DNA of 64,000 nt, from positions 62,001 through 126,000 of the forward strand of contig CACWPL010000005.1 of assembly GCA_902762785.1 (NCBI GenBank), given 5' to 3'. Positions within the stretch are counted from its first letter, which is position 1, and each line of letters starts with the position of its first letter. The position numbers and the translations under genes are program-made. This DNA is from an uncultured Ruminococcus sp. (GTDB lineage: Bacteria > Bacillota > Clostridia > Oscillospirales > Ruminococcaceae). Shown here one piece after another: positions 8,366 to 19,102 of this stretch. The notes below the pieces were generated by a model that did not search any database, had not been told where the DNA came from, and was given only the letters and a program-made list of their open reading frames with translations.

Positions 8366-9655
8366 TCAATTATCCCAAAAATAGCGCTCCTCGAACTGTG
8401 CCTTGTCCTCGGCGGCACGGTAGAGGGCGAGCTGCTGCTCCGTGCTGGCGAAGAAGCTCTCCCGCACGGTCTCCGGCAGTACCCCCGCTACGAACGCCGA
8501 CTCCTTCGCCGCCGTGAGCGCCGCCTCGAGCGAATCCGGGAGGCGGTCGAAGGGCTTTGCGGTGCCGTCCGCACGGGTCGTCTCCGAGAGCGTCAGGCCG
8601 CGCGCGATGCCGTCCATGCCGGCTGCCAGCAGGAGCCGGAAGGACAGGTAGGGATCGCAGCAGCAGTCCGGGCTGCGCACCTCGATGCGCGGATGGATGC
8701 CCACCTGCCCCGGGATCCGCACGAGCGGACCGCGGTTCTCGAACGACCAGCAGATCTCGTTCGGCGCGCCGCTGTGCCGCAGGCGCGCATAGGAATTGAC
8801 CGTCGGGTCGAGGAAGAGCGTCATCTCGGCGATGTGGGCGAGGATGCCGGCGATGAAGCTGCGTCCCTCCGCGGGGAGGGCGCCGTCCTCGAGGCGGAAG
8901 ATATTGCGGCCGTCCTTCATGACATTGAGGATGACGGTCAGGGCGCTGCCGTAGCTCCCCGGCAGCGGACGCGGCATGAACGACGCGAACAGGCCGTTTT
9001 GCGCCGCGATCGTCTTGACGGTGGACTTGTAATGCACCATATGGTCCGCGGCGGTGACGGCGTCCGCACAGGCGAAGTCGATCTCGTTCTGGCCGGGGCC
9101 GTACTTGTGGCAGGAGCTCTGCGGGGCGAGGCCCATCTCCTCGAGGGAGAGACAGATCTCGCGGCGGGTGTTCTCGCAGCGGTCGAGCGGGGCGACGTCG
9201 AGGTAGCCGGCGCGGTCGTGGGGGCGGCGGGTGGGGCGTCCCTCCTCGTCGAGGTCGAAGAGGTAGAACTCGCTCTTGGTGCCGATGGTGCAGGTGTAGC
9301 CATCCGCGGCCATTTGGCGGACGCCGTCGGCCAGCACGGCGCGGAGGTCGCCCGGGTAGGGCGTGCCGTCCAGACGGCGGATGTGGCAGAAGAACCGCAC
9401 GACCCGTCCGGACTTCGGCCGCCACGGCAGGACAGAGAGCGTCCCGCCGTCCGGCACGAGGAGCAGGTCCTCGGGGCAGTCCGAGAAGCCCGCGGCGTCC
9501 ACGGGGATGCCGTAGGTGAAGGCACGGGGCAGCTCGCTGGGCATGATGGCGATGTTCTTGAGACTGCCGCGCATGTCGCTGAAGGTCAGGCGGATGAACT
9601 TGACGTCATTTTCCGCTACGAATCGCAGGATCTCGTCCTGAGAGAATGTGTCCAT
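8366..9655 (-). CDS. Glutamine synthetase family protein (type I-like), active site altered
   Basis: The 429-aa protein aligns along its whole length with type I glutamine synthetase: the N-terminal beta-grasp domain (1-95), SEFYLF (128-133), GPGQNEID (186-193), the MPRPL block (227-231), TVNSYARL (285-292), ENRGPLVRIP (306-315) and RIEVRSPD (323-330). However, the nearly invariant GSGMHxN block reads GSALTVI (236-242), so the metal/ATP-binding His is a Thr and the following Asn an Ile. It may be a GS paralogue with a different substrate, or a regulatory pseudo-enzyme. It has its own promoter and is followed by the ANTAR regulator. Confidence 0.88.
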   Translation of the reverse strand: MDTFSQDEILRFVAENDVKFIRLTFSDMRGSLKNIAIMPSELPRAFTYGIPVDAAGFSDCPEDLLLVPDGGTLSVLPWRPKSGRVVRFFCHIRRLDGTPYPGDLRAVLADGVRQMAADGYTCTIGTKSEFYLFDLDEEGRPTRRPHDRAGYLDVAPLDRCENTRREICLSLEEMGLAPQSSCHKYGPGQNEIDFACADAVTAADHMVHYKSTVKTIAAQNGLFASFMPRPLPGSYGSALTVILNVMKDGRNIFRLEDGALPAEGRSFIAGILAHIAEMTLFLDPTVNSYARLRHSGAPNEICWSFENRGPLVRIPGQVGIHPRIEVRSPDCCCDPYLSFRLLLAAGMDGIARGLTLSETTRADGTAKPFDRLPDSLEAALTAAKESAFVAGVLPETVRESFFASTEQQLALYRAAEDKAQFEERYFWDN

Positions 9656-9670
9656 GACAGTACCTCCCCG

Positions 9671-9689
9671 ACGGCCGGGGCGCGGCCGT
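9671..9689 (-). other. Hairpin in the 5' leader of the GS-family gene
   Basis: On the minus strand ACGGCCG-CGCCC-CGGCCGT lies directly in front of the GGGGAGG ribosome binding site. It could influence translation or be an RNA target, but its loop does not match the six-base loop expected for ANTAR sites. Confidence 0.5.
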
Positions 9690-9720
9690 GCGCGTTGATG
9701 ATATACTTATTATCCTACTT

Positions 9721-9749
9721 ATTATACTACTTTTCAGCACCATTGTAAA
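9721..9749 (-). promoter_or_regulatory. Promoter of the GS-family/ANTAR operon
   Basis: TTTACA (9744-9749), 17 bp, TATAAT (9721-9726) on the minus strand. Confidence 0.85.
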
Positions 9750-9760
9750 GTGGTCACGGC

Positions 9761-9802
9761 AAAAAAAGACACGCCCGACGGCGTGCCTTTAGGGGGCGTG
9801 TC
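9761..9802 (-). terminator. Terminator overlapping the flavin reductase-like stop codon
   Basis: GACACGCCC...GGGCGTGTC followed by seven T on the minus strand. The 5' arm includes part of the stop codon of the upstream gene. Confidence 0.85.
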
Positions 9803-10307
9803 AGCCCTTCCTGTACGCGGCGACGATGCGGCCGATGTACATCTTGTGCATCTCGTCGAGGCCGTAGTAGCGCTCCAGGATCTCGGGGTCGCCGATGGCA
9901 TCGGCGTCGAGCATCTGGGCGTAGACCTTCTCGCAGACCAGCACGATGGACGCCTCCTCGAACGCCACCGCCCCGTCGAGCGTGACGGGCGTCAGGCCGG
10001 TCTCCTTGACCTTGTCGAAGTCGCGGCCGGAATGGCTCCCGCAGTAGGCGAGCGTTGGCCGCATCTCCTCCGGGAACACGCTGATCGTGAACCGGCTGTC
10101 CTTCTCGAGGAACTCGTGCGTATAGCGCGAGGTGCGGACGTAGGCCGTCACGGAGGGAGCGTTCCAGATCTCGCCGAGCGCGCCCCAGGAGCAGGTCATG
10201 GTGTTGAAGGCCTCCGGGGTGCCGGCCGTCAGCAGGAACCAGGTCCCGCCGATCGTCGAGAACGGCTCGATCCCGAGGGCGTCAGGGGTCGTTTGGATAA
10301 ATGCCAT
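9801..10307 (-). CDS. Flavin reductase-like (FMN-binding split barrel) protein
   Basis: From the ATG at 10307 (AAAGGA site) the protein is 168 aa. It has the features of small flavin-reductase/split-barrel proteins: FSTIGGTWFLLTAGTPEAFNTMTCSWG near the N-terminus, here split as GGTWFLLTAG and NTMTCSWGALGEIW, then RTSRYTHEFLEKD and FTISVFPE. These regions normally bind FMN and would support an oxidoreductase or flavin-binding role. It is last in the efp-linked cluster, with a terminator at its stop codon and another separating it from the zinc-ribbon gene. The substrate is unknown. Confidence 0.85.
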   Translation of the reverse strand: MAFIQTTPDALGIEPFSTIGGTWFLLTAGTPEAFNTMTCSWGALGEIWNAPSVTAYVRTSRYTHEFLEKDSRFTISVFPEEMRPTLAYCGSHSGRDFDKVKETGLTPVTLDGAVAFEEASIVLVCEKVYAQMLDADAIGDPEILERYYGLDEMHKMYIGRIVAAYRKG

Positions 10308-10350
10308 TGCGATCATCCTTTCTTCCGGGCGTCCCCTTCTCGGGGCGCCT

Positions 10351-10384
10351 TTAAAAGTACAGCAGCGGGCGCACCGCTGCTGTA
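10351..10384 (-). terminator. Terminator after the zinc-ribbon gene
   Basis: An 11-bp perfect stem (TACAGCAGCGG/CCGCTGCTGTA) is followed on the minus strand by CTTTT. It lies between the zinc-ribbon gene and the flavin reductase-like gene. Confidence 0.8.
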
Positions 10385-10394
10385 TCCTGCTAGA

Positions 10395-10844
10395 TCAGTC
10401 CTCGTCGCTGTCGTCAGCGGGGATGAGCTCGTCCATCTCCTCGTCGTCGAAGTCGAGGATCAGCTCCTGCCCGCACTTCGGGCAGACGGTCTCCCCCTCC
10501 TCGAGGGTCGCCTCATCGAGCACGAACGTCTCGCCGCACTCCGGGCAGACGGTCTCGTACTGGTCCTCATCGAAGATGTCGCCGCAGCCGCCGGGGCAGA
10601 GGTCACAGGGATCCTCGTCCTCGTCGTCGTCATCCTCATACAGGTCGTCCTCGAGATCGCCGAGGTCCGCATCCAGGATGTCGCACAGCTCCTCGAGCTC
10701 TGCCACACGGTCCTCCAGCTCCTCGACATACTTCAGCACGCCGTCGAGCGCATCGCAGACAGCGTAGAACACCTTGCCCTCCTTGGATGCCGGGTCAACG
10801 CCCTGTCCGTCCAGAAGGCCCTTGAGATATGCGATCTTATCCAT
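10395..10844 (-). CDS. Acidic zinc-ribbon protein (CD1247-type N-terminal domain)
   Basis: The 149-aa protein begins MDKIAYLKGLLDG, a short helical domain I associate with the CD1247-type family of clostridia. A coiled coil (about 30-65) and a strongly Asp/Glu-rich stretch follow. The second half holds CxxC pairs (CPECGET, CPKCGQE) and CDLCPGGC, probably one or two zinc ribbons. It ends in another acidic tail. The start was chosen for its AGGAG site. It follows efp by 15 bp and is likely co-transcribed with it, a common association in this bacterial group. The function is not established. Confidence 0.85.
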   Translation of the reverse strand: MDKIAYLKGLLDGQGVDPASKEGKVFYAVCDALDGVLKYVEELEDRVAELEELCDILDADLGDLEDDLYEDDDDEDEDPCDLCPGGCGDIFDEDQYETVCPECGETFVLDEATLEEGETVCPKCGQELILDFDDEEMDELIPADDSDED

Positions 10845-10859
10845 AGTCAACACTCCTGT

Positions 10860-11417
10860 TTATGCGCGCTCCATGTACTCGCCGGTACGGGTATCCACGC
10901 GGATCATGTCGCCCTCGTTGATGAAGAGCGGTACGCGGACCTCAGCGCCGGTCTCGAGGGTAGCGGGCTTGGTGGCGTTGGTGGCGGTGTCGCCCTTGAC
11001 GCCGGGCTCGGTCTCGGTGACCTGGAGCTCTACGAAGAACGGCGGCTCTACGCCGAATACGTTGCCCTTATAGGACAGCACCTTGACCTCCATGTTCTCC
11101 TTGACGAAGGCGAAGGAAGGGCCGAGCTTGTCCTTGCCGATCGGGATCTGCTCGTAGCTCTCCATGTCCATGAAGTAGTACAGATCGCCGTCCTGGTACA
11201 GGTACTGCATGTCCTTGCGGTCGATGTAAGCGGTCGGGAACTTGGCAGTCGGGTTGAAGGACTGCTCGACGACGGCGCCGGTGATGACGTTCTTGTACTT
11301 GGTACGAACGAAAGCCGCGCCCTTGCCGGGCTTTACATGCTGGAACTCGACTACCTGTACGACATTGCCGTCCATCTCAAAGGTGACGCCGTTTCTGAAA
11401 TCGCCTGCTGTGATCAT
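10860..11417 (-). CDS. efp: Elongation factor P
   Basis: EF-P binds ribosomes stalled on polyproline and stimulates peptide bond formation. The 185-aa protein has the three-domain layout of the family; the loop that reaches the peptidyl-transferase centre reads KPGKG (29-33), with the modifiable Lys at 32. The C-terminal OB domain shows the standard [20 protein letters not shown]. It has its own strong promoter and leads the unit that continues into the zinc-ribbon gene. Confidence 0.97.
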
Positions 11418-11495
11418 AAAATAACCTCCGTAATCTGTTTGCCCTAGTTAGGCCTTGTGCCGCACGTCACAAAATGCGCACGACGATACATGTAT

Positions 11496-11524
11496 ATTAT
11501 ACCATATCCACGCGGATCTGTCAA
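11496..11524 (-). promoter_or_regulatory. Promoter of efp
   Basis: TTGACA (11519-11524), 17 bp, TATAAT (11496-11501) on the minus strand. The 14 bases from the -35, TTGACAGATCCGCG, are identical at the rpsU promoter. Confidence 0.9.
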
Positions 11525-11579
11525 TAGGCATTTTCAGGCTCATGGAGACGTTTTTTTCGGACGCACGCGCCGCGCACGA

Positions 11580-11603
11580 AAGCCCCCTCCGGGGAGGGGG
11601 CTT
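11580..11603 (-). terminator. Probable terminator after the dockerin-protein gene
   Basis: AGCCCCCTCC/GGAGGGGGCT forms a strong hairpin shortly after the stop codon, but only three T follow it on the minus strand, so termination efficiency is uncertain. Confidence 0.6.
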
Positions 11604-11608
11604 GGGGG

Positions 11609-13750
11609 TCAGGTCGTGGGTATTTCATTGACGATGATCGAGCCATTGTAGACCGTTGGCGTGAAGGTCGCGCCGTCGCTGCGGTAGACGAGGGCATCCT
11701 TGAAGATGATATCATACCTGCCAGGGTTCGCGTCAGCAGGGATCCGTATTTCGCATACCGCGATGATGCTCCCGTTGGGTGCGGCCTGTGCAGGCATCCA
11801 TTTTGCATACATGGGATTCACGGGGATAGAGCACCAGTTTTCATAGGCATGATATGGACCGTGTATCCATATCAGCGAAAGAGGTCCAGCGAGATCGATC
11901 GAGCATTGCATGCCATAGCATCCGACATCGTTGTAAACATAGACCGGGACGAATACGGTCTCGCCCGGATACGCTTCGAGCTCCGGGATCTCCCAGTACA
12001 TATTGCTGCTGAGAATCTGGATGTTCCCGGTGTCTTTGGTGATGCTGTAGTCCTTCCTGCCCTTGACGACGATCGCAGACCTGGTGGTCTTGTTGAGATA
12101 CGAGACGGCCTGCGCGAGGGTATGGCGGGCGAAAAGGAAGCCGAAGATGTTGTCCAGGATCTCGTTGGCGGTGCCGCTGTCGGTGATGGCGCTGTTGTAG
12201 CCGACGACGGTGGAGGCACCGCGGCTGATGAGCATGTCGGCGATGCCGGAGTCGGCTTTGGCCTCATTGCCCATGGCGCCGGGACTGTTGATGTACCAGA
12301 ACGACCCGCTCAGAGAGTCCTTGCCGTAATACTTCTCGAAAAAGCCCTTGCCGACGGCATAGCGGCAGGTCAGGAAGGACAGCGCCGTGATGGCGACGCG
12401 GCCGGACTGGATGTCGGCATCGTCCGCGTCCCACTTGGACTGCGTGCCGAGCAGGAGGTATTCGTCCCCATAGATGTCCGTTTTCTTGCGGTAGGACTTG
12501 GTGGAGAGGATGACGGCGCCATACCCCCCGAGCTGCTTCATGCGGTCGAGCGTCACCTCATTGGAGGCGCCGAACCAGGAGGTGTCCTTGAAGACCTCCG
12601 CGCTGCCGGAGCCGAGGCTGCTAGCAAGGTCATTCCCCCAGGAGACGGCATGGACTTCATCGCCCAAGTCATTATAGAAGGGGCAGATCACCGCGACCTT
12701 ATTCTTGCTGGTCTTGACCTCCGTGGGCTTGCCGTTGGTGCGGGACAGCGCAGCGATCTCCGATTCATACCAATAGGTCTCAGAAGCGAGCTCCGTGACG
12801 TGTTCGATCAGATGACCATCTGGATCGTAGACCTTCTCCATGGCGTCAAAAGGATCAGGGCCGGGCAAGGAGAGCGAGCCGGTCACAGACGCCTGTGCAT
12901 CCTGTGCCTCCACCGGCGCGAGCTTGCGCGGCGACCAGTCGTACCCATCAGAAGGCTCCTGCGGCGCCTCGGTGGGCTCCTGCGGCGGCTCGGTGGGATC
13001 CTGCACGCGCCACTCCGGCGGCACCCACATGCCGGTGATGTGGTAGATGGTCTCAAAGAAGATGATCTGCTGATCCTCGTCGTACTCGAGGGACGTGATC
13101 TCGGCACAGTCCTCCAGATAGATGTGCGCTTGCGTGAACGTCATCGTGCTGATCCGCTGCATCAGCGCTTCAAAGCCCGCCTTCTCCTTCTCCTCGAGAT
13201 CCCGGTAGAACGCGACCTCGAAGGGCTCGCTCTCGACGCCCATCGCGGCGGCGCGGTAAGCCACGGTCGCGATCTCGTCGCCGGTGAGGGTAACGACGGC
13301 GGTATAGATGCCGTCTGCGGCCTTTTCATCGCCGTCCCTGCCGTCATCGTGCATCGCGGCGAGGGCGGTGCCGTCCGCGTCGAGGAGCTGCACAGCGCCC
13401 TCGGCGAGCGGCGCGACCTCCGTCACCTGCACGGTGAACGTCACGTCCGTGGGCGTGCCGAGGTAGACGTCCGGGCAGTCCGCCGAAAGGGGCGCCAGCG
13501 ACGGGACGCCGCTCGTGGTCACGGAACGCTTGGCGAGCGCCAGATCGAACACGTCGATCACGCCGTCCCCGTTCACGTCGATCTCACGGCCCGATCCCGC
13601 ATAGCCGCCGTCATGGACATAGGCCTGGATCGCCTTGATGTCCTCTAGCCCGAGCGGCTGCGTCTTCTCCGACACGGCCGCGGCCGGGATGGCGTCCGCG
13701 AGCATCGAGCCGGCCAGGAGCAGGGCCGCGAGTCTTTGCCATCGTTTCAT
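11609..13750 (-). CDS. Secreted dockerin protein with caspase-like core and cohesin-like C-terminus
   Basis: From the ATG at 13750 the protein is 713 aa. A signal peptide spans 1 to about 25. A dockerin-like module follows (33-78), with one good calcium loop, DVNGDGVIDVFD (58-69), and a weaker first repeat. An Ig-like domain lies at about 95-180 and a Pro/Glu linker at 250-268. Residues about 350-565 resemble the C25/CHAT caspase-like fold, but the expected catalytic His and Cys positions read ILSTKSY and INSPGAMG, so it is probably inactive. Residues 588-708 (AYPGETVFVPVYVYN...NGSIIV) look like a cohesin domain. The protein may bridge a scaffoldin and a dockerin partner on the cell surface. 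It is transcribed alone. Confidence 0.75.
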   Translation of the reverse strand: MKRWQRLAALLLAGSMLADAIPAAAVSEKTQPLGLEDIKAIQAYVHDGGYAGSGREIDVNGDGVIDVFDLALAKRSVTTSGVPSLAPLSADCPDVYLGTPTDVTFTVQVTEVAPLAEGAVQLLDADGTALAAMHDDGRDGDEKAADGIYTAVVTLTGDEIATVAYRAAAMGVESEPFEVAFYRDLEEKEKAGFEALMQRISTMTFTQAHIYLEDCAEITSLEYDEDQQIIFFETIYHITGMWVPPEWRVQDPTEPPQEPTEAPQEPSDGYDWSPRKLAPVEAQDAQASVTGSLSLPGPDPFDAMEKVYDPDGHLIEHVTELASETYWYESEIAALSRTNGKPTEVKTSKNKVAVICPFYNDLGDEVHAVSWGNDLASSLGSGSAEVFKDTSWFGASNEVTLDRMKQLGGYGAVILSTKSYRKKTDIYGDEYLLLGTQSKWDADDADIQSGRVAITALSFLTCRYAVGKGFFEKYYGKDSLSGSFWYINSPGAMGNEAKADSGIADMLISRGASTVVGYNSAITDSGTANEILDNIFGFLFARHTLAQAVSYLNKTTRSAIVVKGRKDYSITKDTGNIQILSSNMYWEIPELEAYPGETVFVPVYVYNDVGCYGMQCSIDLAGPLSLIWIHGPYHAYENWCSIPVNPMYAKWMPAQAAPNGSIIAVCEIRIPADANPGRYDIIFKDALVYRSDGATFTPTVYNGSIIVNEIPTT

Positions 13751-13810
13751 ATACATGACCTCCCTTTCTATCATGCATCCCGCCAAAAAGCACGGCAGGA
13801 TGTTTTTTTC

Positions 13811-13839
13811 ATTATAGCACATCCGGGGCGCAGCGTCAA
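13811..13839 (-). promoter_or_regulatory. Promoter of the dockerin-protein gene
   Basis: TTGACG (13834-13839), 17 bp, TATAAT (13811-13816) on the minus strand, about 60 nt before the start codon. Confidence 0.85.
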
Positions 13840-13885
13840 CGCTCACGCCGGAGGACCTTTCTTTTTTTCAGAGAGACGGCGCGGC

Positions 13886-14071
13886 TCACGTCTTCTCCCG
13901 CAGATACCGCCGCAGATCCAGATAGCACGCGATCGACGCCGCGATCCCGAGCGCCGCCCCGATCAGTAGCGGAGGCAGACTCGTCTTCATCGACAGGATC
14001 GCCGTCATCAGCGCCGCGAAGAGCGGCTTCCATGCGATATCCAGCACCAGTTTGCGTTCCTTTTTGTCCAT
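13886..14071 (-). CDS. Small membrane protein
   Basis: The 61-aa protein has a charged N-terminus (MDKKERK), a hydrophobic segment from about 12 to 50 that is broken near Lys29 and may cross the membrane twice, and a basic tail (DLRRYLREKT). AAGGAGC stands upstream of the ATG. It starts 11 bp after the GNAT gene and is the last gene of the aroQ-peptidase-GNAT run. I do not recognise a family. Confidence 0.6.
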   Translation of the reverse strand: MDKKERKLVLDIAWKPLFAALMTAILSMKTSLPPLLIGAALGIAASIACYLDLRRYLREKT

Positions 14072-14081
14072 GTCTTGCTCC

Positions 14082-14654
14082 TTATTTATCAGACGTCTCC
14101 TCGACCATGCCGATGTGGAAACGCTGCATCGCTTTTTTGCCCATATACCGTTCCATCAGACGCGCATACCCCGCGGCGTCCACGTCCCCGCCGACACCGA
14201 GCACGTCGAACACGACCGGCCCCTCCTGCACGCGCCGGTGCAGGTCCTCGAAGCCATTTCGCAGGTAGAACGCCCGCCGGCGCTCGCGCTCCTTCGCGTT
14301 CGGTGCGGACGGATCGAGCGGCTCGATCGCGAGGAAGAGCCGCCGCCCCGCGTAGTGCCGGATGGCCGCGGCGAGCGTGCCGCTGCCGATGCCCTGTCCC
14401 CGGCACGCCGCATCCACCGCGAGATAGAACACATAGGACAGCGTCCCATCGCTGACGACATACAGCATCCCGACCGTCTCGGCACCGCGGCGGATCGCGA
14501 ACAGGTCGACATACGGCCGTTTTCGCCGCATCCACAGCATCCAGAACGGCGCCCGCTCCTCCGGCGGGAAGGCCTCCCGGTAGATGGCAGACAATCGCCG
14601 CCGGTCACGCAGGGAGGGCGTCTCCAGGCGGATCTCTGCGTCGTTCACACGCAC
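14082..14654 (-). CDS. GNAT-family N-acetyltransferase
   Basis: The 190-aa protein has the acetyl-CoA pyrophosphate-binding motif RGQGIGSGTL preceded by VFYLAVDAACRGQG, and RAFYLRNGFED later, the usual motif A and B of the GNAT fold. The substrate is unknown. Its start overlaps the end of the M24 peptidase gene by 10 bp (a GTG at 14654, or 14648), so translation is probably coupled. Confidence 0.88.
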   Translation of the reverse strand: MRVNDAEIRLETPSLRDRRRLSAIYREAFPPEERAPFWMLWMRRKRPYVDLFAIRRGAETVGMLYVVSDGTLSYVFYLAVDAACRGQGIGSGTLAAAIRHYAGRRLFLAIEPLDPSAPNAKERERRRAFYLRNGFEDLHRRVQEGPVVFDVLGVGGDVDAAGYARLMERYMGKKAMQRFHIGMVEETSDK

Positions 14655-15721
14655 ACCAGCTCGTTCGGGATCTTCGTGAGGGTGCGGCAGGCGTCGTCCG
14701 TGATGACGACGAAGTCCTCGATGCGCACGCCGAAGCGGCCCGGCAGGTAGATGCCCGGCTCGATCGTGACGACGTTGCCCGGCTCGAGGACGGTCGTGCG
14801 GCGGGCGGGGCTCGCCACGGGGTACTCATGGATCTCGAGGCCGACGCCGTGCCCGAGCGAATGGCCGAACGCCTCGCCGTAGCCTGCCTCGCGGATGACG
14901 GCGCGCGCGGCCTCGTCCAGCTCTGCGCCCGTGATCCCCGGACGCGCCACCGCGCGGGCGATGTCCTGCGCCGCGCGGACGATCTCGTAGACCTCGCGCA
15001 TCTCGCTCGTCGGCTCCCCGACGCAGACGGTGCGGGTCATGTCGCTGTGATAGCCGTCGACGACCGCGCCGAAGTCCATCAGCACGAAGTCGCCCTGCCG
15101 GATCTCGCGGTCATCCGGGACGCCGTGGGGCATGGACGTGTGTGCGCCGGTCAGCGCGATGGTCTCGAAGGACAGGTCCTCCGCCCCGTGACGGCGCATG
15201 TGGAAGTCGAGGAAGAGCGCGACGTCCCGCTCCGTCATGCCCGCATGGAGCTCCTGGAGGAGCGCCGCGAGGGCGTCCTCGGCGAGCTGCTGGGCGGCCT
15301 CGATGCGCTCGAGCTCCGCCGCGCTCTTGACGGTGCGCAGGGCGTAGAGGGCGTCGCTCAGGGTCGAGTCCGTGAGGAATTCGATGCCCTGGATCCTTTT
15401 GAGGACGGCCGCGCGCTGGAGCGTCAGGCTCATGGACTGCACCGCGCAGGTCCGGGCGCCGTGCGCCTTCATGACGGCCGCGAGCTGCCCGAGGACGGCG
15501 TTCTCCTGCTCGATGACGGTGCAGTGGCGGACGACCTCGCGCGCCCGCTCGATGTAGCGCGAGTCGATGATGAGGACGGTCTCGTCCTCAAAGACGAGCA
15601 CATAGCCCGCGGAGGACTTCATGCCGGTCAGGTAGCGCCGGTCGATGTCATCGGTGATGAGGGCGCAGTCGGCCTTGCCCTCCAGCAGCGCGCGCAGGCG
15701 TGCGATCCGTTCCTCCATCAC
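14645..15721 (-). CDS. Xaa-Pro aminopeptidase/dipeptidase (M24 family)
   Basis: The 358-aa cytoplasmic metallopeptidase removes N-terminal residues before proline. It has an N-terminal creatinase-like domain (about 1-130) and the pita-bread catalytic domain with the metal ligands in order: [17 protein letters not shown] (two Asp), [14 protein letters not shown] (His), TIEPGIY (Glu) and VRIEDFV (Glu). The length fits PepQ/PepP-type enzymes. It overlaps the end of aroQ by 4 bp (ATGA) and is itself overlapped by the GNAT gene. In many clostridia this gene pair sits beside efp, as it roughly does here. Confidence 0.95.
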
Positions 15722-16158
15722 TGCACCTCCATCTCGGCGAGCGCGCGGACGGCCAGGTCGTAGCTCATCAGACCGAAGCCCGAGATGCTCCCTTTGCAGA
15801 CCGGCGCGATGACGGAATGCGAACGAAACGCGTCACGCGCGAAGATGTTGCTGATGTGGACCTCGATGACCGGGATGCGGATGGCCTTGATGGCGTCCGC
15901 GATGGCGTAGCTGTAGTGGGTGTAGGCGCCCGCGTTCAGCACGACGCCCCGGCAGGTCTTCCGGCTCTCGTGGAGCTTGTCGACGAGGTCGCCCTCGTGG
16001 TTGGATTGGTAGACCTCCGCCTCGAGGCCGAGCTCGGCGGCGAGCGCCGTGAGATGGGCATTGAGCGTCTCGAAGCTCGTGTCGCCGTAGATTCCCGGCT
16101 CGCGTTCGCCGAGCAGATTCAGGTTCGGACCGTGCATGATCAGGATCTTGTTGGACAT
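15718..16158 (-). CDS. aroQ: 3-dehydroquinate dehydratase, type II
   Basis: AroQ converts 3-dehydroquinate to 3-dehydroshikimate in the shikimate pathway. The 146-aa protein is typical in length, with HGPNLNLLGEREPGIYG (catalytic Tyr at 24), NAGAYTHYSYAI and VIEVHISNIFARD. It heads the unit aroQ-peptidase-GNAT-small membrane protein. Only 47 bp separate it from the rpsU terminator, and I see no clear promoter there, so read-through from rpsU is possible. No other aro genes are nearby. Confidence 0.97.
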   Translation of the reverse strand: MSNKILIMHGPNLNLLGEREPGIYGDTSFETLNAHLTALAAELGLEAEVYQSNHEGDLVDKLHESRKTCRGVVLNAGAYTHYSYAIADAIKAIRIPVIEVHISNIFARDAFRSHSVIAPVCKGSISGFGLMSYDLAVRALAEMEVQ

Positions 16159-16205
16159 GGTGTACCTCCTAGTATCTCATGAAGGGGCATCTGCCCCTGT
16201 GATTC

Positions 16206-16237
16206 GCAAAAGGGGACCATCTGACGATGGTCCCCTT
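16206..16237 (-). terminator. Intrinsic terminator after rpsU
   Basis: AAGGGGACCATC-GTCA-GATGGTCCCCTT then TTGCG on the minus strand. The stem is perfect and 12 bp long, but the U-run is short, leaving room for read-through into aroQ. Confidence 0.75.
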
Positions 16238-16247
16238 CTGTTTGAAC

Positions 16248-16421
16248 TCAATACTTGCGCTTACGAGCGGCCTCGGACTTCTTCTTACGCTTTACCGAAG
16301 GCTTCTCGTAGTGCTCTCTCTTACGAACCTCGGCAATGACGCCGTCCTTGGCACAGGATCTCTTGAAACGCTTCAGAGCGGTATCCAGAGACTCGTTCTT
16401 GCCAACGCGTACTTCTGCCAT
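16248..16421 (-). CDS. rpsU: 30S ribosomal protein S21
   Basis: A 57-aa basic protein beginning [19 protein letters not shown] and ending in a Lys/Arg-rich helix ([14 protein letters not shown]). The sequence and size match bacterial S21, which sits on the 30S platform near the Shine-Dalgarno helix. GGGAGGG is the ribosome binding site. The gene is single, with its own strong promoter about 220 bp upstream, an unusually long leader and a terminator. Confidence 0.96.
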
Positions 16422-16633
16422 TTATTTTCCCTCCCTTTGCCACCAAGACAGAGGTCCTATCTGCGGATCACCAGAGCGTCTCGAAAACGCCCGGACAGTC
16501 CTCGCTTTGGATAGTGATATCTGAAACCTTTCTGGACTCAGCTCGGGACGCGATGCAGATGCATGCGCGAGCGGCACTGGAAAGGAACAGTTGTCTCAGA
16601 TGAATTTGGAGCCGTTTGCCCCCATAGGATCAT
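16422..16633 (-). promoter_or_regulatory. Long structured 5' leader of rpsU
   Basis: About 210 nt separate the predicted transcription start from the S21 start codon. The leader contains several self-complementary stretches, such as GCGTTTTCGAGACGC and CAGATAGGACCTCTG. No ORF is evident. A ribosomal-protein autoregulatory leader is plausible, but I do not recognise a described class. Confidence 0.45.
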
Positions 16634-16639
16634 AAAATT

Positions 16640-16668
16640 ATTATAACACAGCCGCGCGGATCTGTCAA
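16640..16668 (-). promoter_or_regulatory. Promoter of rpsU
   Basis: TTGACA (16663-16668), 17 bp, TATAAT (16640-16645) on the minus strand. The -35 and the eight bases after it are identical to those of the efp promoter. Confidence 0.9.
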
Positions 16669-16696
16669 TACTTTTTTCATAAATTGCGGAGCTTTG

Positions 16697-19102
16697 TTAT
16701 TTTACAACAAAATTCACGAGCTTATTTTGTACATAGATCTGCTTGACGACCGTCTTGCCGGCCATGGCCTCAGCGATCTTGGGGTCTGCGGCGGCCTGGG
16801 CGAGGACATCGTCCTTCTCCGCGCCGACCGGGACGTTCAGACGGCCCTTGAGCTTGCCGTTGACCTGTACCACGATCTCGACCGTCTCATCCTGGCAGAG
16901 GGACTCGTCGAACTTCGGCCAGCTCTGCTCGTTGAGGACGCCGCCGAAGCCGTTCTGCTCATAGATCTCCTCGCAGAGGTGCGGGGCGAACGGGTCGAGC
17001 AGGATGCAGAGCGTGCGCAGCTCCGCCTTGTTGACGCTGCCGGCCGCATAGAGGTCGTTGACGAGCGCCATCATGGCGGCGATGGCCGTGTTGAATTTCA
17101 GGCTCTCGATGTCCTCGGAGACCTTCTTGATGGTCTTGTGGAACTTCGCGGTAAGCTCCGGGCGGTAGGCATCGCCGTCGATGAGCATGTCCTGGAGCGC
17201 CCAGACGCGGTCGAGGAAGCGCTTGCAGCCCTTGATGCTGTTGGTGCTCCACGGCGCGGTCTTCTCGAAGTCGCCGACGAACATCTCATAGAGACGCAGC
17301 GTATCGGCGCCGTACTGACGGATCACGTCGTCCGGGTTGATGACGTTGCCGCGGGACTTGGACATCTTCTGGCCGTCCTCACCGAGGATCATGCCATGGG
17401 ACGTGCGGCGCATGTACGGCTCCTTGCACGGTACCGCGCCGATGTCGTACAGGAACTTGTTCCAGAAACGGCTGTAGAGCAGGTGCAGCGTGGTGTGCTC
17501 CATGCCGCCGTTGTACCAATCGACGGGCATCCAATACTGGAGCGCCTCCTTGGAGGCGAGCGCCTCGGTGTTGTGCGGGTCGCAGTAGCGCAGGAAGTAC
17601 CAGGACGAGCCTGCCCACTGGGGCATGGTGTCGGTCTCACGCTTGGCGGGGCCGCCGCAGCACGGGCAGGTGGTGTTGATGAAGCTCTCGAGCGTGGAGA
17701 GCGGGGACTCGCCGTTATCGGTGGGCATGTAGCTCTCGACCTCCGGAAGGGTCAGCGGGAGCTCCTCCTCGGGGATGGCGACCCAGCCGCACTTCTCGCA
17801 GTACACGACCGGGATGGGCTCGCCCCAGTAGCGCTGACGGGAGAAGACCCAGTCACGCAGCTTGAAGTTGACCTTGCGGTGGCCCTTGCCGGTCTCCTCG
17901 AGCCAGTCCTTGATCTTGACCTTGGCGTCCTCGACGGACAGGCCGGTCAGGAAGCCGGAGTTGACCATGACGCCGGTGGCGCAGTCGGTGAAGGCGGCCT
18001 CCTCGATGTTGCCGCCGGCCACGACCTCGACCATCGGGATGCCGAAGACCTTGGCGAACTCCCAGTCACGGTCGTCATGCGCCGGGACGGCCATGATGGC
18101 GCCGGTGCCGTAGCTCATGAGGACATAGTCCGAGATGAAGATCGGGATCTCCTGGCCGTTGACAGGGTTGATCGCGGAGACGCCCTCGAGGCGCACGCCG
18201 GTCTTCTCCTTGTTCATCTCGGTGCGGTCGAAGTCGCTCTTGCGGGCGGCCTCGTTCTGGTAGGCGCGGATGGCGTCCATGTTGGTGAGCTTGTCCGCCC
18301 ACTTGTCGATCATGGGATGCTCGGGCGCGATGACCATGTAGGTGGCACCGAAGAGGGTGTCGGGACGGGTGGTATAGACGGTCAGGGTGTCGCCGGCGGT
18401 GGTGCCGAAATCGACCTCGGCGCCCTCGCTGCGGCCGATCCAGTTGGTCTGGGTGGTCTTGATGCGGTCGAAGTAATCGACATCCGCGAGATCGTCGATG
18501 AGGCGCTGGGCATAGGCCGTGATCTTCAGCATCCACTGGCTCTTGACCTTGCGGATGACCTCGCCGCCGCAGCGCTCGCAGCAGCCGCCCACGACCTCCT
18601 CATTGGCCAGCACGACCTTGCAGGACGTACACCAGTTGACGGCCATCTCCTTCTTGTAGGCCAGGCCCTTCTTGAAGAGCTGGAGGAAGATCCACTGTGT
18701 CCACTTGAAGTAGGCGGGGTCGGTGGTGTTGACCTCACGGTCCCAGTCGAAGGACAGACCGATCGACTTGAGCTGCTGCTTGAAGCGCGCCACGTTGTTC
18801 TTGGTGACGATGGCGGGGTGGATCTTGTTCTTGATCGCGAAGTTCTCGGTCGGCAGGCCGAAGGCGTCCCAGCCCATCGGGAAGAGCACGTTATAGCCCT
18901 CGAGACGGCGCTTTCTGGCCACGATGTCCATGGCCGTGTACGGACGCGGATGGCCGATGTGCAGGCCCTGCCCGGACGGGTAGGGGAACTCTACCAGCGC
19001 ATAGAACTTCGGCTTGGTAAAGTCGTTCTCCGCATGGAACGTCTTGTGGTCGTCCCAATACTTCTGCCACTTCTGCTCGATCTTTTGATAATCATACTTC
19101 AT
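16697..19102 (-). CDS. leuS: Leucyl-tRNA synthetase
   Basis: LeuRS charges tRNA-Leu. The 801-aa protein has the HIGH motif at 48-51, a zinc-ribbon insert ([13 protein letters not shown] then CCERCGGE), the CP1 editing domain with [19 protein letters not shown], the KMSKSRGNV loop in the second half and the C-terminal anticodon-binding domain ending in [16 protein letters not shown]. The length is typical of bacterial LeuRS. It closes the long housekeeping run that begins with the SpoU gene. No T-box leader fits in the 70 bp before it. No terminator is obvious before the rpsU promoter. Confidence 0.98.

Follow-up and report, generated by a model that had tools for sequence, protein, structure and literature searches.

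The gene on the minus strand at positions 11609 to 13750 of the window, a 64,000-nucleotide stretch of DNA from an uncultured Ruminococcus sp., raises the question of what a protein does when it carries an N-terminal dockerin, a C-terminal cohesin, and, in the middle, a protease-type core without its active-site pair. Judging from its sequence, the 713-aa product is probably secreted, to act in a ruminococcal-type cellulosome as a monovalent adaptor scaffoldin; its core, of protease lineage, would now be a non-catalytic spacer or peptide-binding body. We computed directly the modules (from the sequence), the fold class of the core (from a model), the loss of the catalytic dyad, the occurrence of the core at one place in the genome, and, relative to five relatives, the insertion between efp and pepP. 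The features of the gene are as follows.

13811–13839, minus strand: promoter-like site TTGACG-17-TATAAT 5′ of the gene, 11 of 12 consensus matches
13759–13764, minus strand: ribosome-binding-like GGGAGG, 8 nt 5′ of the ATG, recognized by eye
11609–13750, minus strand: whole gene of the 713-aa protein, ATG at 13750, stop codon within the span
13676–13750, minus strand: signal peptide, residues ~1–25, assigned by eye, no predictor
13517–13669, minus strand: dockerin, residues ~28–78, helix 1 without a calcium loop, repeat 2 intact
13544–13579, minus strand: calcium loop DVNGDGVIDVFD, residues 58–69, from the sequence and the same-genome dockerin profile
13016–13501, minus strand: choice-of-anchor-X Ig-like domain and the alpha/beta stretch that follows it, residues ~84–245, from NCBIfam, profile, and model
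12716–13015, minus strand: proline/glutamate-rich linker and low-confidence stretch, residues 246–345, from sequence and model
12053–12715, minus strand: core of predicted caspase fold (C25/CHAT-like) without the catalytic dyad, residues 346–566, from profile and model
12497–12499, minus strand: Lys418 at the catalytic His position (His kept in 51 of 52 relatives)
12281–12283, minus strand: Pro490 at the catalytic Cys position (Cys kept in 51 of 52 relatives)
11627–12004, minus strand: C-terminal cohesin, residues 583–708, from BLAST and profiles

The 713-codon frame is intact on the minus strand, and the opposite, plus-strand reading of 11609–13750 is broken by a stop. The promoter scan of 11300–14200 gave four sites, against a mean of 1.1 in shuffles. 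No sortase motif was seen by eye at the C-terminus of the protein, Rfam gave no match over 9000–17000, and plasmid records gave no match. A first genome-contig scan with the 713-aa protein as the single query confirmed nothing. The full-length model was weak (mean pLDDT 61.9), with the core blocks at approximately 59–88 and the dockerin at approximately 44–54; Foldseek with this model returned mostly Ig-like and unrelated matches, with Craspase at rank 14.

A dockerin-type calcium loop at residues 58–69 had been proposed in an earlier, sequence-only reading of the locus, and it is present. Pfam Dockerin_1 scored 17.6 bits on residues 58–78, below its cut-off of 22.9, whereas a profile built on 30 of the genome's own dockerin loci gave 30.4 bits over residues 34–77 (34.7 in a second run), a homology that spans both helices. 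Of the two loops that characterize a type I dockerin, only the second (58–69) was found, the first being absent by eye: helix 1 is retained without a calcium loop, and the second repeat, DVNGDGVIDVFDLALAKR, is intact; many dockerins encoded in this genome have a similar second repeat (VFDLALLKR type). By eye, L159, L161, and L163, three relatives of the protein that are described below, lack the first loop as well. On these, the same-genome profile gave 28.3 bits for L161, 26.2 for L159, and 16.8 for L163, the last match being confined to the second repeat; Pfam Dockerin_1 gave a sub-threshold 20.6 bits for L159 and no match at E ≤ 0.01 for L161 and L163. Taken with the result for the 713-aa protein, these scores point to a lineage with a divergent dockerin that lacks the first loop.

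A half-dockerin of this kind can function, since the group 2 dockerins of Ruminococcus flavefaciens, in which one calcium repeat is identified (PMC2930009), are described as binding the ScaE and ScaH cohesins (PMC5301203). The helix-1 contact positions described for the group 1 dockerins of R. flavefaciens (PMC5429695) are not conserved in the 713-aa protein, which by hand mapping has Lys39 and Ala43 there, and the partner cohesin may therefore differ from the standard enzyme-binding one. From its sequence, the dockerin may bind another cohesin or none. Four other loci of the same genome (L046, L049, L052, and L053) carry dockerin repeats in an apparently swapped order, as seen by eye.

The domain list of the sequence-only reading, which comprised the dockerin, the core, and the cohesin, stands but had overlooked a choice-of-anchor-X domain. 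The NCBIfam family choice_anch_X (NF041940) matched residues 132–156 at 32.7 bits, above its cut-off of 25, and also matched all 11 members of alignment A4 at E ≤ 0.01. In the full-length model, most 10-residue blocks of residues 91–240 reached a pLDDT of 85–94. A profile of 10 relatives, built without the 713-aa protein, scored the X domain and core together at 209 bits, while the best of 2000 shuffles of the protein reached 4.1 bits.

The same profile, together with a structural model, upholds the earlier description of the core as having the layout of C25/CHAT peptidases. Pfam found no family at E ≤ 1 on the core, and thus no Peptidase_C25 match; the core relative in L110 was matched by Peptidase_C25 at 23.9 bits, just over the cut-off of 23. 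The core-only AlphaFold2 model (11 rows) had a mean pLDDT of 75.1 and a pTM of 0.79, and a Foldseek search with it gave 10 PDB matches at E ≤ 0.001. The Foldseek list includes Craspase or related chains (7xsr, 7zoq, 8d9f, 7xsq, and 7y84), caspase-9 (3v3k), separase (5mz6), and 8rot (DdvA), the last listed by name with its fold class left aside; two receptor entries (6li0 and 5xra) appeared with low TM-scores. The TM-score by query length was moderate, 0.42–0.53, for the first eight PDB matches, and a PDB profile search with alignment A7 found no sequence at E ≤ 1. In its predicted structure, the core is of the caspase type and matches Craspase CHAT, caspase-9, and separase, and the alignment shows no intact dyad in it.

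The core has lost its His-Cys dyad. His-Gly and Cys are present in all 10 relatives of the 11-sequence alignment, where the 713-aa protein has Lys418-Ser419 and Pro490; the replacements (HG to KS at 418–419 and C to P at 490) lie where the loss had been placed from the sequence. The dyad was kept in 26 of 26 relatives before the order-level search and in 51 of 52 distinct relatives once all family cores had been collected, a count that is to be read with the profile in mind, as it was built from dyad-bearing sequences and hence favours dyad-bearing matches. That set was taken at E ≤ 1e-4 to the core profile without the 713-aa protein, with identical and nested copies dropped. Six core columns show no variation across the 10 relatives; of these, the protein keeps L480, G511, and A512 and has lost H418, G419, and C490, which belong to the active site; it keeps 11 of the 16 columns conserved in at least eight of 10 relatives, and G517, a structural core residue, is also kept. 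The sole other dyad exception is L221, with Gly and Ser, from a different family of the same order; it is possibly an independently dead relative.

The core is rare. A three-sequence core alignment containing the 713-aa protein matched 14 of 396 family genomes, and 18 of 394 order genomes had a core match at E ≤ 1e-10, the source genome being included in both counts. Within the genus, it was found in the source genome and in none of the 37 others, 12 of these 38 genomes having a completeness of 90% or more and a contamination of 5% or less. The closest core relatives were found in the genus of G328 (30 genomes), in which five genomes, including G328, exceeded 300 bits. The scan of named genomes confirmed 20 loci, and at six of these (L159 to L164) the match was long; L159 to L163 are apparently the proteins of the G328-genus search, as their frame lengths are equal, and L160 is almost identical to L159. 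In the source genome, the core profile at E ≤ 1 matched one place, the gene itself, and the idea that the protein regulates an active paralogue of this genome was dropped on that ground. Of the proteins with the 53 distinct cores, only the 713-aa one had a detected cohesin, although many of the 53 core loci span only approximately 1.5 kb per side and the far ends of long frames may lie outside.

The C-terminal module, called cohesin-like in the sequence-only reading, is homologous to accepted cohesins over its full length, as determined by profile, BLAST, and comparison with the solved cohesin 5n5p. Pfam Cohesin (PF00963) remained below its cut-off of 24.1 on this module (14.5–19.9 bits), and the genome-wide Pfam cohesin search at E ≤ 0.01 did not include it among its matches. 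In contrast, a cohesin profile from 13 relatives without the 713-aa protein gave 70.6 bits, while the highest score among 2000 shuffles was 9.9. BLAST connected residues 585–713 with the cohesin of L009 (E 4.8e-13), which itself lies over the Pfam cut-off at 44.1 bits, and with repeated modules in large frames of 1300–2100 aa. The cohesin profile including the 713-aa protein led to 5n5p at E 2.3e-27, and the protein alone reached it at E 0.0027 over residues 583–708; this structure is ScaB cohesin 5 of R. flavefaciens (PMC5934362). In the structure prediction, residues 572–713 had a pLDDT below 50 because no cohesin row was available for the alignment. The model did not yield the cohesin fold, and the assignment therefore rests on sequence profiles. 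Across the protein, custom profiles for dockerin, cohesin, and core bore out the earlier assignments, whereas in Pfam Dockerin_1 and Cohesin were sub-threshold and Peptidase_C25 gave no match.

We considered where the cohesin came from and what it binds. A recent transfer of the cohesin piece was suspected from its GC3 of 0.656, against 0.85–0.90 in the signal-dockerin, X, and core parts. This reading was dropped because five cohesins of the genome's own multi-cohesin gene have a GC3 of 0.64–0.73 and because 8% of 1008 overlapping blocks of other genes in the window are equally low. In a tree, the cohesin lies near those of L009, L011, L012, and G117 on a long branch (1.9); the fork support was 80/81, the fork is left open in the drawing, and the composition differs. 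We make no claim that this cohesin derives from the Coh-Big_2-Doc proteins found in genus g108 (L009, L011, and L012). A viral-contig scan with the cohesin alignment confirmed nothing. Prediction of the cohesin partner from the 5N5P contacts (PMC5934362) was set aside, as a hand alignment gave equivalents of Gln778 and Ala811 only and was too uncertain.

The gene lies in a block of approximately 3.2 kb between efp and pepP (11418–14644), which consists of a GNAT acetyltransferase gene, a 61-aa frame, and the 713-aa gene; the 61-aa frame has no Pfam match. In all five readable genus relatives, the efp-pepP distance is approximately 105–125 bp and the block is absent; pepP was matched in 30 other genomes of the genus, the region was taken from seven of these, and two of the seven contigs end early. 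The absence in five relatives makes a gain of the block in this genome more likely than its loss elsewhere.

The genome surrounding the gene is rich in cellulosome modules. For Dockerin_1, 150 of 179 candidates were scored and 124 matched at E ≤ 0.01; Cohesin gave eight matches at this threshold, six of them over the cut-off. Clustered together are a cohesin-dockerin frame of 285 aa, a frame of 583 aa whose dockerin is not accompanied by a Pfam cohesin, and a 1797-aa multi-cohesin frame. On gene content alone, the host is predicted to make a cellulosome. The same genome encodes another single-cohesin protein, the 455-aa L056 (C6), with a divergent cohesin, two Ig-like stretches recognized by eye, and a dockerin; it was found with the A5 profile (E 9e-8) and missed by the Pfam cohesin search.

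Several known systems resemble the 713-aa protein in part. In Ruminococcus champanellensis, ScaH combines SGNH, cohesin, and dockerin, and ScaK combines GH25 and cohesin (PMC9210761). ScaH shares with our protein an enzyme-type domain, one cohesin, and one dockerin; its SGNH domain, however, is N-terminal and termed catalytic in that source, whereas the 713-aa protein has a dyad-less caspase fold between an N-terminal dockerin and a C-terminal cohesin. L029, by Pfam a GDSL lipase with Cohesin and Dockerin_1, has a ScaH-like layout, and its cohesin is related to that of the 713-aa protein. A dockerin with a single cohesin is also found in the adaptor scaffoldin ScaC of R. flavefaciens (PMC5301203) and in the 285-aa gene of the source genome, which differs in its cohesin-dockerin order and in having no further Pfam domain. 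For R. flavefaciens, LRR-Coh-Doc (ScaI) and Peptidase-UNK-Doc proteins are also described (PMC5301203).

The peptidase side of the protein has parallels as well. L159, L161, and L163, from metagenome-assembled genomes of sheep rumen, goat omasum, and pig, share the layout of half-dockerin, X domain, and core, with 29–31% BLAST identity to the 713-aa protein over 530–550 columns. They differ in that His-Gly and Cys are intact and no cohesin is found by Pfam; at the C-terminus, Pfam gives LRR_5 in L161 and L163 and nothing in L159. Candidatus Stygibacter (Cloacimonadota) is described as having a gingipain-like Peptidase C25 with a C-terminal dockerin, thought to be part of a cellulosome-like structure (PMC8542988), and dockerin-bearing C25 peptidases are therefore already published. 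By that description, the Stygibacter protein is an enzyme from another phylum, its dockerin is C-terminal, and no cohesin is mentioned in what is reported of it. RflaF_05439 of R. flavefaciens, in which an NlpC/P60-like module of solved structure occurs together with an X-dockerin (PMC3573020), likewise joins a cysteine-peptidase-like fold to a dockerin; it differs in its fold and in its retained catalytic triad, and its described layout includes no mention of a cohesin. PMC3123361 deals with the gingipain adhesin domain and with calcium motifs. In the open-licence literature, we found no report of a dead caspase-fold domain with both dockerin and cohesin, and nothing on a dockerin with clostripain or on dockerin and cohesin with a pseudoenzyme. 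What has been published are proteins that combine an enzyme, a cohesin, and a dockerin, and C25 peptidases that bear a dockerin; the combination with a dead core was not found in that literature.

The adaptor role is proposed because one dockerin and a single cohesin, both recognized by profiles, occur in one protein, together with a signal peptide assigned by eye. The 713-aa protein would be secreted; its N-terminal dockerin would attach it to a cohesin on one of the cell's scaffoldins, and the cohesin at its C-terminus would take one dockerin-bearing partner, as expected from established cohesin-dockerin biology. The core would descend from a lineage of dockerin-borne cysteine peptidases (dockerin, X domain, and C25/CHAT-like protease) and would subsequently have lost its His-Cys dyad. 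We infer from the sequence that the core performs no proteolysis; it would no longer cut and would instead space the two ends or bind a polypeptide. The term "small adaptor" used in the sequence-only reading fits the architecture of dockerin and cohesin, but not the size, as the protein has 713 residues and an extra Ig-like domain.

A possible but doubtful extension is that the pseudo-caspase is a cellulosomal binding module, whose dead cleft would capture polypeptides, such as a cleavage-site peptide, a protease, or an inhibitor, while the end modules place the catch in the complex. c-FLIP is an inactive caspase homologue that works by binding, and the caspase-8:c-FLIPL chain 3h11_B stands at rank 42 in the core-model Foldseek list. 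The likeness is an analogy, a non-catalytic caspase fold used for binding, and no kinship beyond the fold is claimed. If the dead domain binds peptides, protein handling would be linked to fibre-degrading complexes; if the pseudo-caspase reading is true, protein regulation or protein-substrate capture would be wired into a fibre-degrading machine.

The missing dyad could also mean that the gene is simply decaying: an inserted ex-peptidase with its active site gone, fused by chance to a cohesin, and on its way out. Its presence in one of 38 genus genomes and the missing block at efp-pepP in five relatives are compatible with this. Moreover, the core is 22–30% identical to five relatives (A7), which are 32–60% identical to one another, a pattern that might be taken as decay of the core. 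However, the core-to-X identity ratio of 0.58–0.73 in pairs with the 713-aa protein falls inside the 0.50–1.26 seen among relatives; faster change of the core is therefore not supported and was dropped. The frame is uninterrupted and preceded by promoter-like and ribosome-binding sites, the structural residues L480, G511, A512, and G517 are retained, and both end modules are still recognizable. We therefore regard decay, of the core as of the whole gene, as unlikely. No close relative suited to a selection test on the gene was found. The dyad could, conversely, have been rebuilt, the core remaining a hydrolase that uses, for example, Ser489 and Lys418 as a pair where the active site used to be. 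Lys418 does occupy the His position and Ser489 adjoins the old Cys position, but Gly419, invariant in all 10 relatives, is lost and Pro490 stands in place of the nucleophile. A caspase fold is not known to work with a Ser-Lys dyad, and this reading appears very improbable.

The remaining alternative concerns the N-terminal end. The protein might be a cell-surface docking protein, with the half-dockerin binding an anchoring (ScaE-type) cohesin and its own cohesin displaying a partner on the surface. The one-repeat group 2 dockerins of R. flavefaciens that bind ScaE and ScaH (PMC2930009, PMC5301203) and the missing first loop, by eye, in the 713-aa protein and in L159, L161, and L163 speak for it. 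The second repeat, however, is of the VFDLALLKR type common to many dockerins of the same genome, and no anchoring scaffoldin was identified in this genome, which makes surface docking distinctly unlikely. We favor the secreted adaptor scaffoldin, with one binding module at either end of a non-catalytic core.

Our results suggest that gut Oscillospiraceae have a lineage of caspase-fold peptidases that carry dockerins, and that a putative enzyme of this lineage seemingly became a connector; a component once catalytic would thereby have come to serve the cellulosome structurally. Connectors that bind at both ends are also of use in the design of enzyme complexes. With their intact His and Cys, L159, L161, and L163 (apparently the same as loci among L129–L133) are candidate cellulosome-borne cysteine peptidases. 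Two further proteins from Clostridia metagenome-assembled genomes, L165 and L167, join choice_anch_X and a caspase fold to a C-terminal dockerin, which Dockerin_1 scored at 31.0 bits in L167, over the cut-off, and at 21.8 bits in L165, under it.
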